Assembly: GCA_021295715.1 (NCBI GenBank)
Contig: JAGWBV010000055.1
Span: 1 to 38,346 of the forward strand
DNA length: 38,346 bases
Reading direction: 5' to 3'
Origin: Candidatus Poribacteria bacterium
Lineage (GTDB): Bacteria > Poribacteria > WGA-4E > WGA-3G
Shown here: in pieces, positions 1,682 through 22,352 of the stretch
Layout: every line of letters begins with the position of its first letter
Position numbering within the stretch: position 1 is the first letter of the stretch
Position numbers and translations under genes: made by a program
Notes under the pieces: model-generated
What the model was told of the DNA's origin: nothing
What the model saw: only the letters and a program-made list of their open reading frames with translations
Database searches by the model: none

Positions 1682-1693
1682 CGCAAACACCTT

Positions 1694-1894
1694 ATAGGAC
1701 TTACGCACTTCCCCGGCAGGGTCATTCAGTTCTCGGTTTTTTGTCCAAAGAAACCCCCTAAATCCCCCTTATCAGGGGACTTTCGACCTTCCTTGCGGAA
1801 AACTAAATAGCCCTGGCTTCCCCGGTAGGTGCGGTTTCCTAACCGCACCGATTGCGCTATAATAGACTGAATTCTTTGATTTTGCGTAAGTCCT
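1694..1894. repeat. dispersed hairpin-rich repeat with inverted ends (MITE-like)
   Basis: The segment is bounded by a perfect 12-base inverted repeat, AGGACTTACGCA at 1696-1707 and TGCGTAAGTCCT at 1883-1894. Inside is a perfect 9-bp hairpin (1828-1849, stem GGTGCGGTT, loop TCCT). The left 23 bases (1694-1716) recur exactly at 4233-4255. It has no coding capacity. It resembles a miniature inverted-repeat element or REP-type sequence; no target duplication was established. Confidence 0.6.
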
Positions 1895-2140
1895 GCCTCA
1901 TTTATCATACTCTTCATTTTCAAAACTCCAGTCTTTAGGCTGGAGATGTAGAAAATGTCAAAATTAAGTTGACTGAAATTTGTTTGTGTGATACGATTTA
2001 AGTGCATTGCTGGTAGAGAATTCCATCTGCTCTGCACAGGGCAGTCTCTACCACCAACCGAATGGAATCGGGTAGCTAAAGATACCGTATTCAGAACAAT
2101 TGGAACAATTAAATGTTTCCTCAGCATCTGTATGGGGTGA

Positions 2141-3231
2141 GTGTTTAAGCTTAAAAACTCTTGGGACTATGCTCATGGTTACAGGACGGGTGGCAGGCTT
2201 GACTATGAGTGCGAGTTGTGGATGGATAAGCGGTTGAGTAAATCACAACCTCTGCATTCACAGAGTATACAACATGTGCGTTGGCGGTTTTTCAAGAATC
2301 GTAAAGCATTCCGTGAACTTCGTAAAAACGGTGATAAAAGAGCAAAACCACCATATAGAGATAAAGCGTTCCAGACTACAACTTGGAAAAAACAAGCTAT
2401 TAGATTTAGAAACGATCTTTTTGGTAAAAAGTTAAGTCTCTCTAATGGTAGAGGTAACAAGCCTTTAGTGGTTAGTCTTCCAAAAGAGTTTGATATAAAA
2501 TACGCTGAATCACATATAGCACTTGTTGAGTTGGTTTACGATAAGGGTCAGTATTGCCTACATTTTAATCGGAAGGTATTGCAGGAGTTGATATAGGCGA
2601 GATACATCCTATAGTGAGTCATGATGGTGTGATTACTAACATCTTTAATGGGCGGTATATTAGAAGTCTATACCGGTTGAGGAATAAGGTGATCGCGTCA
2701 TTTGGCAAGAAAATAGATAGGTGTGAACGTCATTCTCAACGCTGGTGGCATCTGGTGAAACGCAAATGGAAACGCATCAAAAAGATTGATAACCAGATAA
2801 TGGACGGCTTACACAAACACACTACAAAGTTTGTAAAGTTGTGTGAATCGCGTAGTATTGGCACCATTGTGCTTGGCGATTTAACTGGCGTTCGTGAAAA
2901 TATCAACTATGGCAAGCGTGCGAATCAAAAGTTACACCAGTGGGCATTTGGTAAAATCACACAACTCATCACCTACAAAGCCAGGACTTTAGGTATCAAA
3001 GTGGAAGTGATTGATGAGTCTTACACTTCGCAGACTTGTCCGCATTGTGGCAATAGAAAGAAGCCTACGAATCGTAACTACACCTGTAAATGTGGTTTTA
3101 CATATCATCGCGATGGTGTAGGCGCAATCAATATAAGACAAAAGTATCTTGGATACTTAGGTGTCCCAGTAGCGGCGACTATGGCATCGCCCGTCGGTAT
3201 TCGCTTAGAAGTCCGATGTTGCTCCGCTTGA
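2141..3231 (+). pseudogene. tnpB: TnpB (OrfB) RNA-guided nuclease-like protein, frameshifted
   Basis: Two frames make one TnpB. The first (2141-2596, possible GTG start) covers the helical N-terminal part, including SQSIQHVRWRFFKNRKAFRELRK. The second, open from 2569 to 3231, begins EGIAGVDIGEIHPIV, the RuvC-I motif with its catalytic Asp, and continues to the zinc finger (CPHCG then CKCG) and RuvC-III (HRDGVGAINI). A frameshift lies near 2569-2596, and the extreme N-terminus of the family seems to be missing, so the copy is probably inactive. The RuvC-II position reads LGDLTGVREN, with Gly where canonical TnpB has Glu; a Glu about 47 residues on (VIDESYTSQTCP) may replace it. Such families cut DNA with an RNA guide transcribed over the element's right end. 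Confidence 0.85.
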
Positions 3232-3264
3232 GCGGAGAATGTTCCCACGAGGAACAAAAGGAAT

Positions 3265-3284
3265 CTCCAGTCTTTAGACTGGAG
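3265..3284 (+). repeat. right-end hairpin of the IS element
   Basis: Perfect 8-bp stem CTCCAGTC/GACTGGAG with a TTTA loop, the partner of the left-end hairpin at 1927-1946, which differs only by a G at one stem position. In IS1341-type elements the guide RNA usually runs through this end. Confidence 0.7.
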
Positions 3285-3315
3285 AGGGTTCAATAACGAA
3301 AAAAGGAGAAAATTA

Positions 3316-4230
3316 ATGTTTAATACTGTTTGTCGCCGCATATCGCTCGGCGTCCTACTCCTGATGGTCGGCACAGTCCCCGCACTCATCGCGAGCGAGG
3401 AAATTAAATGGGAAAAAACGCTTGAGGACAGCATAACAAAAGCCGCTGAGACCGGCAAACCGATGATGATGGACTTCTATACCGATTGGTGAGGGTTCTG
3501 TAAGCGGCTGGATGCCGAAACGTTTACGGATGCACAGATTATCGAACTCTCTGAAAAGTTTGTTTCCGTCAAAGTGAATCCTGAAGATAAGAATTATCCG
3601 CTCAATGAAGAGACGCGGAATCGGTACGGTGTCGCTGCTTATCCAGCAGTCCTGTTTGTCAGTTCCGATGGGGGTCTCATCCAAAAGGCTTCAGGATTTC
3701 TCACACCGGAACAGTTTTCACCGATTATGCAGGATGCTTTGGCAAAAGAGGAAGTCTTTTCAAAGAAACTCGACGAACTCAAGAAGAAGCCAGACGATGC
3801 CAAACTCAACGCGCAAGTCGCGCTCACCTATCTCGAACGGAACCAGCTTGATAAAGGGGTCTCGTTCAGTGAGAAAGCGTTTGCGCATGATCCGAAAAAT
3901 CGCACGAAGCTCATCCCCGACCTGCATAACCAATTGGGACTCGCTTACGGCGCGCTCGTTGAAGCGGCTATGCTTGCAAATACCGAAGAAGCCGAGACCC
4001 ACTTTGAAAAGGCTGTCTCCCACTTCAAAACCGTCATAGACACGTACCCGAAAAGCAAGGCACATGAACCCGCTCAATACTACCTCGGCGTGACATACGC
4101 CATCAAAGGGAACTTTGAAGATGCGATTGCCGTGCTTGAGAAGTTATCCCGCCATGCCAAGGACGAGAACATAAGGCAGAACGCCGAGGTGATGCTGGAA
4201 CGGGTCAAAGATTTGGCGAGTTCCAACTAA
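3316..4230 (+). CDS. secreted thioredoxin-fold protein with in-frame TGA (candidate selenoprotein), TPR-like C-terminus
   Basis: The ATG at 3316 follows a good RBS (AAAGGAGA, 3303-3310) and begins a signal peptide (LGVLLLMVGTVPALIAS). The frame runs to TAA at 4230 with one interruption, TGA at 3490-3492, codon 59. Around it the protein reads DFYTDW-(TGA)-GFCKRLDAETF. Family members have DFYxDWCGxCKRLD here, so the TGA sits exactly on the first Cys of CxxC, giving UxxC if read as selenocysteine. A small GC hairpin (CGGC 3505-3508, loop TGGAT, GCCG 3514-3517) follows at a SECIS-like distance. The rest is intact: the cis-Pro segment YGVAAYPAVLF, then helical TPR-like repeats from about residue 140 on. 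The alternative is a point nonsense mutation of TGC/TGT. Likely an extracytoplasmic redox protein. Confidence 0.8.
3490..3517 (+). promoter_or_regulatory. possible bacterial SECIS element after in-frame TGA
   Basis: TGA at 3490 is followed by a 4-bp all-GC stem (3505-3508 with 3514-3517) closing a 5-base loop TGGAT that contains G residues. A weaker outer pairing of GTAA (3500-3503) with TTAC (3524-3527) could extend it. In bacteria the SECIS hairpin lies in the coding sequence just downstream of the UGA, as here, but the stem is short and could be chance. Confidence 0.35.
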
Positions 4231-18309: not shown

Positions 18310-21270
18310 ATGCAATACGATTCATCAACGTACACAGACCTGACAGATGGTGAGCTCATCCAACTCGTGCAAGATGGAGATGAGGAGGCGTTTGCCCAAC
18401 TCGCAGCACGTCACAGTCCGAGAATTTGGCAACTCGTTGTTTTGAATTCCCGTCAGATCCGCGATGCTGAAGAGATTTTCCAAGACATTTGGATAGCCGT
18501 CTGGGAAAACATCAGCGGTTTACGCGAAGTCAGCAGTTTCGGTGCTTGGCTCCGGAAGATAGCCTACACCACCTGTCGAAGGTACTACACTGCCAGCTCG
18601 CACACAAGGGGTGAGATCCTGCAGAGCGCAGAGCAACTCGCTGAAACGATTGATCGAGATGTGCTTGCCCGGTTTCGAGAAATGGAACTTCGCGCCGCTG
18701 TAACCGAAGCAGTACACGACCTACCAGAGCGGGTTCGGGCGATCGCGGTGCTCTACTACTTAGAGATGTGGACGATGAAAGAAATTGCGACCGAGTTGGG
18801 TTTGGCGGTTGGCACCGTCAAGACAAGACTCAGCCAAATCCGGGCACGCCTGCGCGAGGAATTTGGCGTTGAAGAAGTTAAGAGGGGAAGAACTATGGCA
18901 CATGAAACAGAAGTATCCAAACCGACACGTGACAAACCTAAAGTTTTTGGTGTCGGCGACGCAGGTGGCAATGTTGTCAAACAGATGATTGCCTCCGATT
19001 TCAAAGGCGTTGAATTTTACGCTGTTAATACAGATGTGGCGGCACTCCGCACATGCGGTGAAGCGACACAGGTGCAAATTGGTGCTGAAACTACGCAAGG
19101 ACTTGGTGCGGATGCAAAACCTGAAATCGGCAGAGCGGCAGCTGAAGAAAATTTAGAATCGCTCAACGCCATTGTCGCGGACGCTCGCATGGTTTTCGTT
19201 ACTGCAGGCATGGGGGGTGGAACAGGGACAGGTGCCGCTCCGCTGATCGCATCCGTCGCCCGAGATCACGGTGCTTTAACGATAGGTGTTGTGACGCTTC
19301 CACTTGATTCCGAGGGACAACGCCGCGCCGAATACGCACAACTGGGACTCCATGAACTCCGAGAGAACACCGATGCAGTTATCGTAGTCCCGAATCAGCG
19401 GCTTCTTGATACTGTGGACACAGAACCCTCGACGCGTGAAACGTTCCGCATGAGCGATGAAACCGTGTTACTCGGCATTAAAAGCGTCGCCGCTATTATT
19501 GTCGAGTCAGGGGGGGTTAACGTTGATTTCGCCGATATAGAGAGCATTATGAAGGACGCTGGCACGGTGTTGATGGGCATAGGGCAAGCATCCGGTGAAA
19601 ACAGGGCAAGCATCGCAATGGAAACCGCCATCACTTCACCGCTGCTGGACGGGAAAAGCATCGGGAACGCAACTGGGCTGATTGTTAATATTAGTGCCCC
19701 GCAGGACTTTATGATGAATGAATTGGATACGGCGATGAAGGTGCTCCAAGACGAAGCATTCGACGCACAGATTATCTTTGGACTGGTCTACAAGGACGAC
19801 GATCCTGAACCTGAAGGCACGGTTGATGTTACACTCCTTGCAGCTGGGGTTGAGCCACAAAGCGAATCTGCTGTTGCACCGTCCACCCAGCAGCGTGGAG
19901 GCTCTCCTGGAGGCGGCACTCGCGTCTCATCTACAACTGCGTCCGAATTTGTTCATCTGCACAACCACAGTGAGTATAGCATGCTCGATGGTGCCTGCCG
20001 TATTCCAGATATGGTGGATTGGGCGGTTGAGAATAGTGTCCCTGCTGTCGCACTCACCGATCACGGAAACATGTTCGGCGCATGGGAGTTGTACAGCAAG
20101 GCGACAGAGGCGGGAGTCAACCCTATCATCGGTTGTGAGGTGTATGTCGCACACGGTAGTCGGAAGACACTTGGACAAGAACACGGGGATCCCTATCACC
20201 TCACGCTGCTGGCAGAGGATGCAACCGGCTACCGAAATCTTTTGGAATTGGTATCCCTCGGATACACAGAGGGCTTCAATCGCAAACCACGCATCGACAT
20301 GGAAATCTTACGCGAACACCGCGACGGAATTGTCGCGCTAACGGGATGTATTCAAGGACAGGTGCCACAACTCCTTTGCGCGAATCGGCGAGACGAGGCG
20401 ATCCAGAACTTCAAAACGTTGATGGAGATAATGGGGAAAGGTAATCTCTATGTCGAGCTGCAAAACCACTACATCGACGAGGAGATTAAAGCGTATCCAG
20501 TGATGACACAGTTGGCAAACGAGTTCAATCTCCCTATCGTCGGCACAAACGATTGCCATTACCTCCGCAAATCGGATCACGGGATGCACGACATTCGCCT
20601 CTGTATCCAGACGCAGAAAACTGTCAACGACCGGCAGCGGCTCCGCTATGATAACCACTTCTACTTCAAAAGTGTTGAGGAGATGCGAGAGGCACTGAAG
20701 GATTACCCGCCAGAGGCTATCAGCAATACACTTGCAATTGCGAGTCGGTGCAACCTCGAACTCGACTATCAACAGAATCTGATGCCCAAATACGAGGTCC
20801 CCGAAGGGCATACACACGACAGTTATCTGAAGAAATTGTGCTATCAGGGCTTACGTGAAAGGTACGGTCAACTCTCCGAACCCATCCGACAACGCGTCGA
20901 TTACGAACTGGATATCATCAGACAAGGGAACCACGCCAACTATTTTCTGATTGTGGCGGATTATGTCAACTACGCCCACAAACAAGGGTATCCACTTTCC
21001 GCTCGTGGTTCTGCCGCCGGGAGTCTGGTGTTATACGCACTCGGTGTGATTAGTTTTAATCCAATGGATCACGGGTGTCTGTTTGAACGATTTTTGAACC
21101 TTGAACGTCTCAGTGTTCCAGATATTGATATAGATTTCGCTGATCGTGCACGAGAACATGTAATTGCGTATCTCGCGAAGAAATACGGAGTGGATTCCGT
21201 CAGTAAAGTCGCTACCTTTACCACTTTGGGTGCGAAAACCGCTATCAAGGATGTCGGTCTGAAAAGTTGA
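18310..21270 (+). CDS. fusion frame: ECF sigma factor + FtsZ GTPase domain + front half of DNA polymerase III alpha
   Basis: One uninterrupted frame of 986 codons holds three parts. Residues 1-195 are an ECF sigma factor: region 2 DAEEIFQDIWIAVWENI, region 4 LPERVRAIAVLYYLEMWTMKEIATELGLAVGTVKTRL. Residues 196-530 are FtsZ-like: GVGDAGGNVV, VFVTAGMGGGTGTGAAP (the GTP signature), GGVNVDFADIESIMKDAGT (T7 synergy loop) and IIFGLVYKDD. After a Gly/Ser/Thr/Pro-rich linker, residues from 546 are DnaE: PHP motifs EFVHLHNHSEYS and LTDHGNM, then SARGSAAGS and PDIDIDFAD with both catalytic Asps. The FtsZ part has a possible own start (ATG 18895 with GAGGGGAAG before it). No stop separates the parts. The DnaE part breaks off at TGA 21270. 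The frame is real in this sequence; whether the fusion is functional or reflects gene decay or mis-assembly is open. Confidence 0.8.
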   Translation: MQYDSSTYTDLTDGELIQLVQDGDEEAFAQLAARHSPRIWQLVVLNSRQIRDAEEIFQDIWIAVWENISGLREVSSFGAWLRKIAYTTCRRYYTASSHTRGEILQSAEQLAETIDRDVLARFREMELRAAVTEAVHDLPERVRAIAVLYYLEMWTMKEIATELGLAVGTVKTRLSQIRARLREEFGVEEVKRGRTMAHETEVSKPTRDKPKVFGVGDAGGNVVKQMIASDFKGVEFYAVNTDVAALRTCGEATQVQIGAETTQGLGADAKPEIGRAAAEENLESLNAIVADARMVFVTAGMGGGTGTGAAPLIASVARDHGALTIGVVTLPLDSEGQRRAEYAQLGLHELRENTDAVIVVPNQRLLDTVDTEPSTRETFRMSDETVLLGIKSVAAIIVESGGVNVDFADIESIMKDAGTVLMGIGQASGENRASIAMETAITSPLLDGKSIGNATGLIVNISAPQDFMMNELDTAMKVLQDEAFDAQIIFGLVYKDDDPEPEGTVDVTLLAAGVEPQSESAVAPSTQQRGGSPGGGTRVSSTTASEFVHLHNHSEYSMLDGACRIPDMVDWAVENSVPAVALTDHGNMFGAWELYSKATEAGVNPIIGCEVYVAHGSRKTLGQEHGDPYHLTLLAEDATGYRNLLELVSLGYTEGFNRKPRIDMEILREHRDGIVALTGCIQGQVPQLLCANRRDEAIQNFKTLMEIMGKGNLYVELQNHYIDEEIKAYPVMTQLANEFNLPIVGTNDCHYLRKSDHGMHDIRLCIQTQKTVNDRQRLRYDNHFYFKSVEEMREALKDYPPEAISNTLAIASRCNLELDYQQNLMPKYEVPEGHTHDSYLKKLCYQGLRERYGQLSEPIRQRVDYELDIIRQGNHANYFLIVADYVNYAHKQGYPLSARGSAAGSLVLYALGVISFNPMDHGCLFERFLNLERLSVPDIDIDFADRAREHVIAYLAKKYGVDSVSKVATFTTLGAKTAIKDVGLKS

Positions 21271-22352
21271 CAGAACTCATTCCGTCTCTTCCGTATATCA
21301 CGCTTGATGAAGCCTTGGAACAGGTCCCCGAATTTCAGGCACTTGCTGAACTCCCCGAAAATAGAGAATTGATTGAGATTAGCAGATCGGTGGAAGGTAT
21401 GAAACGGCACGTCTCCTGCCATACCTCCGCAATTGTCGTCTCAGATGGTCGGTTGACAAATTACGTCCCACTCTTCAAGGATAGACATGACCAAGTCGCG
21501 ACACAGTTTGAAGGGAAAACCGTCGAAGATGTCGGTATCGTCAAATTTGATTCCCTCGGTTTACGGAGCCTCAGCGAGACGCATGACTGTCTTCAGATGA
21601 TTGAGGCAAACCATGGTGTCAAGATTACACTCGAAAAGATTCCTTTTGACGATAGGAAAACCTATTCTTTGGTTAGCAACGGACACATCGCTGGTTTATT
21701 CCAGTTGGAGACCTCTCCCGGTATGCTTCAGGTTGTCACGGAACTCAAACCCGACAACTTTGAGGAGTTTTCTACAATTATTGCCCTTTATCGTCCGGGG
21801 CCGATAGAGAATGGCGATATGCAGCGGTACATGGACCGGAAAAATGGGCTGCAGCCCGTGGAATATATACACCCCGCACTTGAGAGCATACTCAAAAGCA
21901 CCTACGGTGTCTGCCTTTATCAGGAACAGGTAATGCAAATTGCTCACGACATAGCTGGCTTCACGCTCGCTGAAGGGGACATACTCCGCCACGCAATAAG
22001 CAGAAAAATGGGCGGGGAAAACGAGGGGTTGCTCGCGGCACAGCGCGAAAAATTCGTTGAGGGGGCAGTAAAAAAAGGTTTTGATAAGGAAGAGACTGAA
22101 AAGGTATTCGAGTCGCTTGAACCTTCTGCACGTTGTGCCTTTAACAAGTCGCATGCAGTTGCTTACTCGATGTTAGCGTATCGCATGGCATACCTGAAAA
22201 CGCACTATCCACACGAATTTATGGCGGCGGTGATGACCGGCGAGGCAGACGATTCAGCAAAAATTGCCTACTATCGAGAGGCGTGTGAAAAACTCTCTGA
22301 CTTCTTAGATGTGGAAATCAATCCGCCTCCGCTTGCCGCAAATGAGTCTTGA
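19945..22352 (+). pseudogene. dnaE: truncated DNA polymerase III alpha (dnaE), frameshifted
   Basis: The DnaE match begins at EFVHLHNHSEYS (19945) and stops being readable near 21258 (AIKDVGLKS then TGA). It resumes in another frame at about 21267 as LTELIPSLPYITLDEALEQVPEF. Compared with DnaE, about 13 residues between RDVG and the TELIP helix are missing, so there is a deletion with frame change. Downstream the match continues (KFDSLGL with the third Asp, GLFQLETSPGM, IALYRPGPIENGDM, CLYQEQVMQIA, AFNKSHAVAYSML), but F and Y residues of usually fixed motifs have become S and C. It ends at TGA 22352 after EINPPPLAANES, without the HhH, OB and tau-binding parts (about 350 residues short). Probably a degenerate second copy. 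Confidence 0.85.

Follow-up and report, generated by a model that had tools for sequence, protein, structure and literature searches.

A candidate exported thioredoxin-TPR selenoprotein with a conserved in-frame UGA in Candidatus Poribacteria

In a draft metagenome-assembled genome of a Candidatus Poribacteria bacterium (175 contigs, 96% complete), an otherwise open reading frame is interrupted by a single TGA at the first active-site position of a thioredoxin-like domain. Does this codon end the protein, or is it read as selenocysteine (Sec)? We addressed the question in a 38,346-nucleotide stretch of DNA (hereafter the window) and in the genomes of related bacteria. Comparison among these sequences makes it very probable that the gene encodes an exported thioredoxin-TPR (Trx-TPR) selenoprotein, in which UGA codon 59 is decoded as Sec under the direction of a hairpin located just downstream. 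The features discussed below are as follows.

1688..3294 (+): remnant of an inserted IS605-type tnpB, outside the selenoprotein gene and given for context (DNA comparison with L052, L053 and L055; Pfam Cas12f1-like_TNB/OrfB_IS605)
3301..3315 (+): ribosome-binding site AAAGGAG and spacer (sequence; kept in relatives by upstream comparison)
3316..4230 (+): candidate exported thioredoxin-TPR selenoprotein gene, 304 residues with Sec at 59, ending in TAA (TGA-readthrough translation, Pfam, AlphaFold2 model)
3316..3396 (+): predicted N-terminal signal peptide (read by eye from a basic start, a hydrophobic stretch and ALIAS; residues 1-26 of the model are unstructured)
3409..3735 (+): thioredoxin-like domain (Pfam, PDB sequence and fold searches; nearest solved fold the DsbD C-terminal, or gamma, domain)
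3490..3492 (+): TGA codon 59, where the UxxC active site begins (54/54 distinct Poribacteria orthologues have TGA)
3499..3501 (+): TGT, resolving Cys62 of UGFC (Cys in 54/54)
3505..3517 (+): bSECIS-like hairpin CGGC-UGGAU-GCCG (synonymous conservation; same geometry in SelD; covariance model R1)
3778..4224 (+): TPR helical tail (Pfam TPR models; helices in the AlphaFold2 model)

The frame opens with ATG at 3316, preceded by the ribosome-binding site AAAAAAGGAG, and closes with TAA at 4228-4230; the TGA at 3490-3492 is the sole in-frame stop before that end. Translated with the TGA as a residue, it reads MFNTVCRRISLGVLLLMVGTVPALIAS...MMMDFYTDW-U-GFCKRLDAETF..., with one TGA in 304 residues. An earlier sequence-only reading had described exactly this frame, open except at codon 59, together with a signal peptide and a good ribosome-binding site, and each of these features was seen again here. 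In close relatives the gene occupies the same place, with mnmE and zinc-ribbon genes on one side and an rluB-like gene on the other. The 1.6-kb tnpB remnant was not present in the three close relatives compared; its end lies ~20 bp upstream of the ATG, leaving the ribosome-binding site in place, and the insertion may have replaced the promoter of the selenoprotein gene. The remnant itself is broken across two frames, and no tnpA was seen. An Rfam search of the window returned tRNAs only. Elsewhere in the window, a single 986-aa frame at 18310-21270 (+) combines an ECF sigma factor, FtsZ and the PHP/N-terminal part of DNA polymerase III alpha, with the polymerase continuing in another frame at 21267-22352; this is an unusual gene fusion or else a chimera made in assembly.

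Domain matches extend across the TGA. Pfam Thioredoxin_7 (2.9e-13) and Thioredoxin_2 (3.9e-13) both matched above cut-off over residues 32-137, across the TGA, and TPR models matched residues 153-300, while the segment before the TGA, searched alone, gave no Pfam match. An AlphaFold2 model built from a 29-sequence alignment (pLDDT 91) consists of a thioredoxin domain followed by helices, and the Pfam matches, the model and the alignment agree on the features that define the thioredoxin fold, a UxxC pair at the start of a helix and an invariant proline (Pro110). Taken with the signal peptide, this fold likeness suggests a periplasmic thiol reductase or a chaperone-like redox protein.

Codon 59 was TGA in every one of the 54 distinct Poribacteria orthologue sequences examined, which ranged in identity from 90% down to 33%; it was never Cys and never another stop. 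Within the same order, 72 of 73 genomes carried a TGA-interrupted copy. The flanking motif DFYTDW-U-GxC-KRLDAxTF was conserved among orthologues, and more distant TGA-bearing members (G075, G141 and G093) had the same two-domain layout. Cys occupies the Sec position in a full-length two-domain homologue from outside the order (L164, genome G085) and in an Aminicenantes homologue (L082). Cys and Sec therefore alternate between lineages, with Poribacteria uniformly Sec; the Cys/TGA alternation that the sequence-only reading had proposed to look for is thus found through L164, but among the poribacterial orthologues the TGA is invariant. Downstream of the TGA, eight of nine congeners gave a dN/dS of 0.13-0.26 and the ninth 0.47, values similar to those of the upstream part. 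These ratios show that purifying selection continues past the TGA, and the low values argue that this part is translated and selected. Some relatives (G056, on contig C130, G052 and G041) hold more than one TGA-containing copy of the gene, and the orthologue match in G069 (L151, contig C2) contains one TAG in addition to the TGA.

The sequence-only reading had pointed to a small GC hairpin 12 bases after the TGA. The stem-loop at 3505-3517 begins exactly 12 nt after the UGA and has a 4-bp stem and a 5-nt UGGAU loop, with 16 nt from UGA to loop. Published rules for bacterial SECIS elements call for a stem of 4-16 bp, a loop of 3-9 nt with a G within its first two bases and a UGA-to-loop distance of 16-37 nt (PMC13188914); the hairpin agrees with these. 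A further criterion is a minimum free energy of <= -7.5 kcal/mol. Folded alone, the sequence of this region from the window has its energy minimum (-13.8 kcal/mol) in a structure that pairs the flanks differently and is not the conserved hairpin, and the case for the hairpin therefore rests on comparison. Synonymous sites are nearly fixed in codons +5 to +9 downstream of the TGA (CGG CTG GAT GCC GAA), the same codon being kept in 51/51, 54/54, 53/54, 51/54 and 43/43 of the sequences that retain the residue. These codons (64-68) show the lowest codon diversity of 121 five-codon segments (0.046, against a median of 0.45), a minimum with P = 1.5e-5 under random codon choice, uncorrected for the number of segments. 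Three relatives (L040, L046 and L047) carry a compensatory change of CGGC/GCCG to CAGC/GCUG; the stem is so nearly constant that the family shows little covariation. Together with the 54 orthologues and the dN/dS values, this synonymous minimum bears out the earlier argument that the TGA is not placed by chance.

A second gene in the same genome shares this arrangement. SelD has its own TGA, in VKCAG-U-ASKL, followed again after 12 nt by a hairpin, GCUC-CGGGU-GAGC, with a 4-bp stem and a 5-nt G-rich loop as in the Trx-TPR gene; in relatives the SelD element reads GAUC-CGGGG-GAUC in places. Pair counts that pool the two hairpins draw on two unrelated genes and show common geometry, not common descent. 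Covariance model R1, built on this hairpin type (12-nt spacer, 4-bp stem, 5-nt loop) and biased toward it, matched the 5.1 Mb genome at the Trx-TPR gene (E = 8e-5) and at SelD (E = 2e-3), with nothing else below E = 2. Weaker R1 matches (L215-L221) were inspected and rejected, none lying in a frame that continues.

Is Sec decoding available to this bacterium? The genome encodes selB (C54:29721-31616), which scored 349.6 bits, above cut-off; immediately after it comes a tRNA-Sec-like gene, selC (C54:31679-31752, or 1501-1574 of L002; 39.5 bits). It also encodes selD (C29:59245-60168). The tRNA gene is identical, base for base, to the tRNA-Sec of relatives up to GGTGGGTTCG, after which the remainder of the T arm with the acceptor (the last ~15 nt) and ~110 bp of spacer are missing, inside contig C54. 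This truncated gene is the only copy found in the assembly, and it reflects a fault of assembly or else a genuine, recent deletion. SelA was not found in this assembly. In the nearest relative, selA has neighbors whose counterparts here sit at the end of contig C18; that contig breaks off at 56805, with ~1.5 kb still to go before selA, and the missing gene is therefore most simply explained as an assembly gap. Two short SelA-like PLP enzymes (L017 and L018, with PF03841 and TIGR00474 matches) fell below the selA cut-off and were rejected as SelA. Across the lineage the machinery is widespread: tRNA-Sec scored above cut-off in 69 of the 79 genomes searched and canonical SelA in 65, and both are intact in finished (single-contig) congeners, where the full set of selA, selB, selC and selD is present. 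Use of another Sec route by Poribacteria lacking SelA was considered and dropped in light of those 65 genomes. An enrichment of SelA and SelB COGs among sponge symbionts has been noted (PMC5649159). The sel genes on which the sequence-only reading would have its case turn are thus present as selB, selD and a selC, whereas selA and the 3' end of the tRNA, both intact in relatives, are absent from this assembly.

These two gaps give some footing to the idea that, within a selenoprotein family, this one strain can no longer decode Sec, its own copy stopping at codon 58. We consider this unlikely: the end of contig C18 accounts for selA, the source is a fragmented draft, and selB, selD and the Trx-TPR gene show no decay, with low dN/dS against the nearest species. 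Less likely still is decoding of the UGA as some other amino acid, either Cys through an opal-suppressor tRNA or Trp through a changed code. Opal suppressors that insert Cys have been suggested for other bacteria, and Sec and Cys would fill the same site; against such a reading stand the presence of SelA, SelB, SelD and tRNA-Sec across the lineage and the Sec codon, with its like hairpin, in SelD itself. Moreover, TGA terminates five of the 26 genes tallied in the window, in keeping with the sequence-only view that it is an ordinary stop elsewhere, and the tRNA-Trp of the genome (in L003) has the anticodon CCA. A nonsense mutation or sequencing error in a pseudogene, which the sequence-only reading had raised as the competing explanation given that TGA is one base from the Cys codons TGC and TGT, has next to no chance of being correct, because the TGA is conserved across an order, being shared by 54 distinct orthologues that come from independent assemblies, with an intact frame and both purifying selection and RNA-level constraint after it.

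Selenocysteine decoding, the reading we favor, is thus the sequence-only proposal of a candidate selenoprotein, now supported by conservation of the TGA, of the coding sequence downstream and of the hairpin, and by Sec machinery in the lineage. From these comparisons we infer the steps of Sec insertion, export, reductase activity and client binding. SelB and tRNA-Sec would decode UGA codon 59 as Sec, with insertion directed by the hairpin that begins 12 nt 3' of it. The signal peptide would direct export to the periplasm. There Sec59 and Cys62 would work together as the UxxC redox pair of a thioredoxin domain resembling DsbD gamma, and the TPR tail would most likely bind client or partner proteins.

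How does this protein compare with known systems? DsbD provides the nearest solved fold: its C-terminal (gamma) domain is a periplasmic thioredoxin-like reductase, the role suggested for the poribacterial protein, and shares 25-28% identity, whereas the poribacterial protein has neither the DsbD alpha domain nor the membrane domain, carries Sec for Cys and adds a TPR tail. YbbN/CnoX (3qou, 3qdn) has the same order of a thioredoxin domain followed by TPR helices, but it ranked lower than DsbD in the fold search and superposed poorly overall (TM 0.28), and the poribacterial protein has a predicted signal peptide and UxxC. In E. coli, YbbN is cytosolic. Among NCBIfam selenoprotein models none matched at cut-off (the best scored 72.9 bits against 805, 27.5 against 300 and 24.1 against 275); the top match, TsoB, a rhodanese/DsbD-like selenoprotein (NF045694), aligned over the thioredoxin part with E = 1.4e-20, its 72.9 bits being limited to the terminal thioredoxin-like part. 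Thioredoxin-fold UxxC selenoproteins are known, and include Sec-thioredoxin (PF00085) and a thiol:disulfide interchange protein (PF13098) in a published inventory (PMC13188914). Like them, the poribacterial protein has a thioredoxin fold, places Sec first in the active site, keeps the second Cys and has a SECIS element directly after the UGA, but it differs in the TPR tail fused to its thioredoxin domain. A literature search found no paper naming Poribacteria together with selenoproteins, although the protein may be listed elsewhere. It apparently represents an undescribed family within a known kind, the thioredoxin-fold UxxC selenoproteins.

With the TGA read as a stop, standard annotation should split this gene into a 58-residue stub and a headless TPR protein. 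The findings add a well-supported selenoprotein family to a candidate phylum of sponge symbionts, and a compact SECIS geometry common to the Trx-TPR gene and SelD. Because model R1, with its bias toward this hairpin type, found only these two genes in the genome, one could speculate that Poribacteria keep the whole Sec machinery chiefly for them, with the Trx-TPR protein as its main client, an idea that we hold only tentatively and think doubtful. In contrast to families that switch between Cys and Sec, this one holds Sec near-invariably across an order, and it is therefore well suited to studying what advantage selenium brings to a periplasmic thioredoxin.
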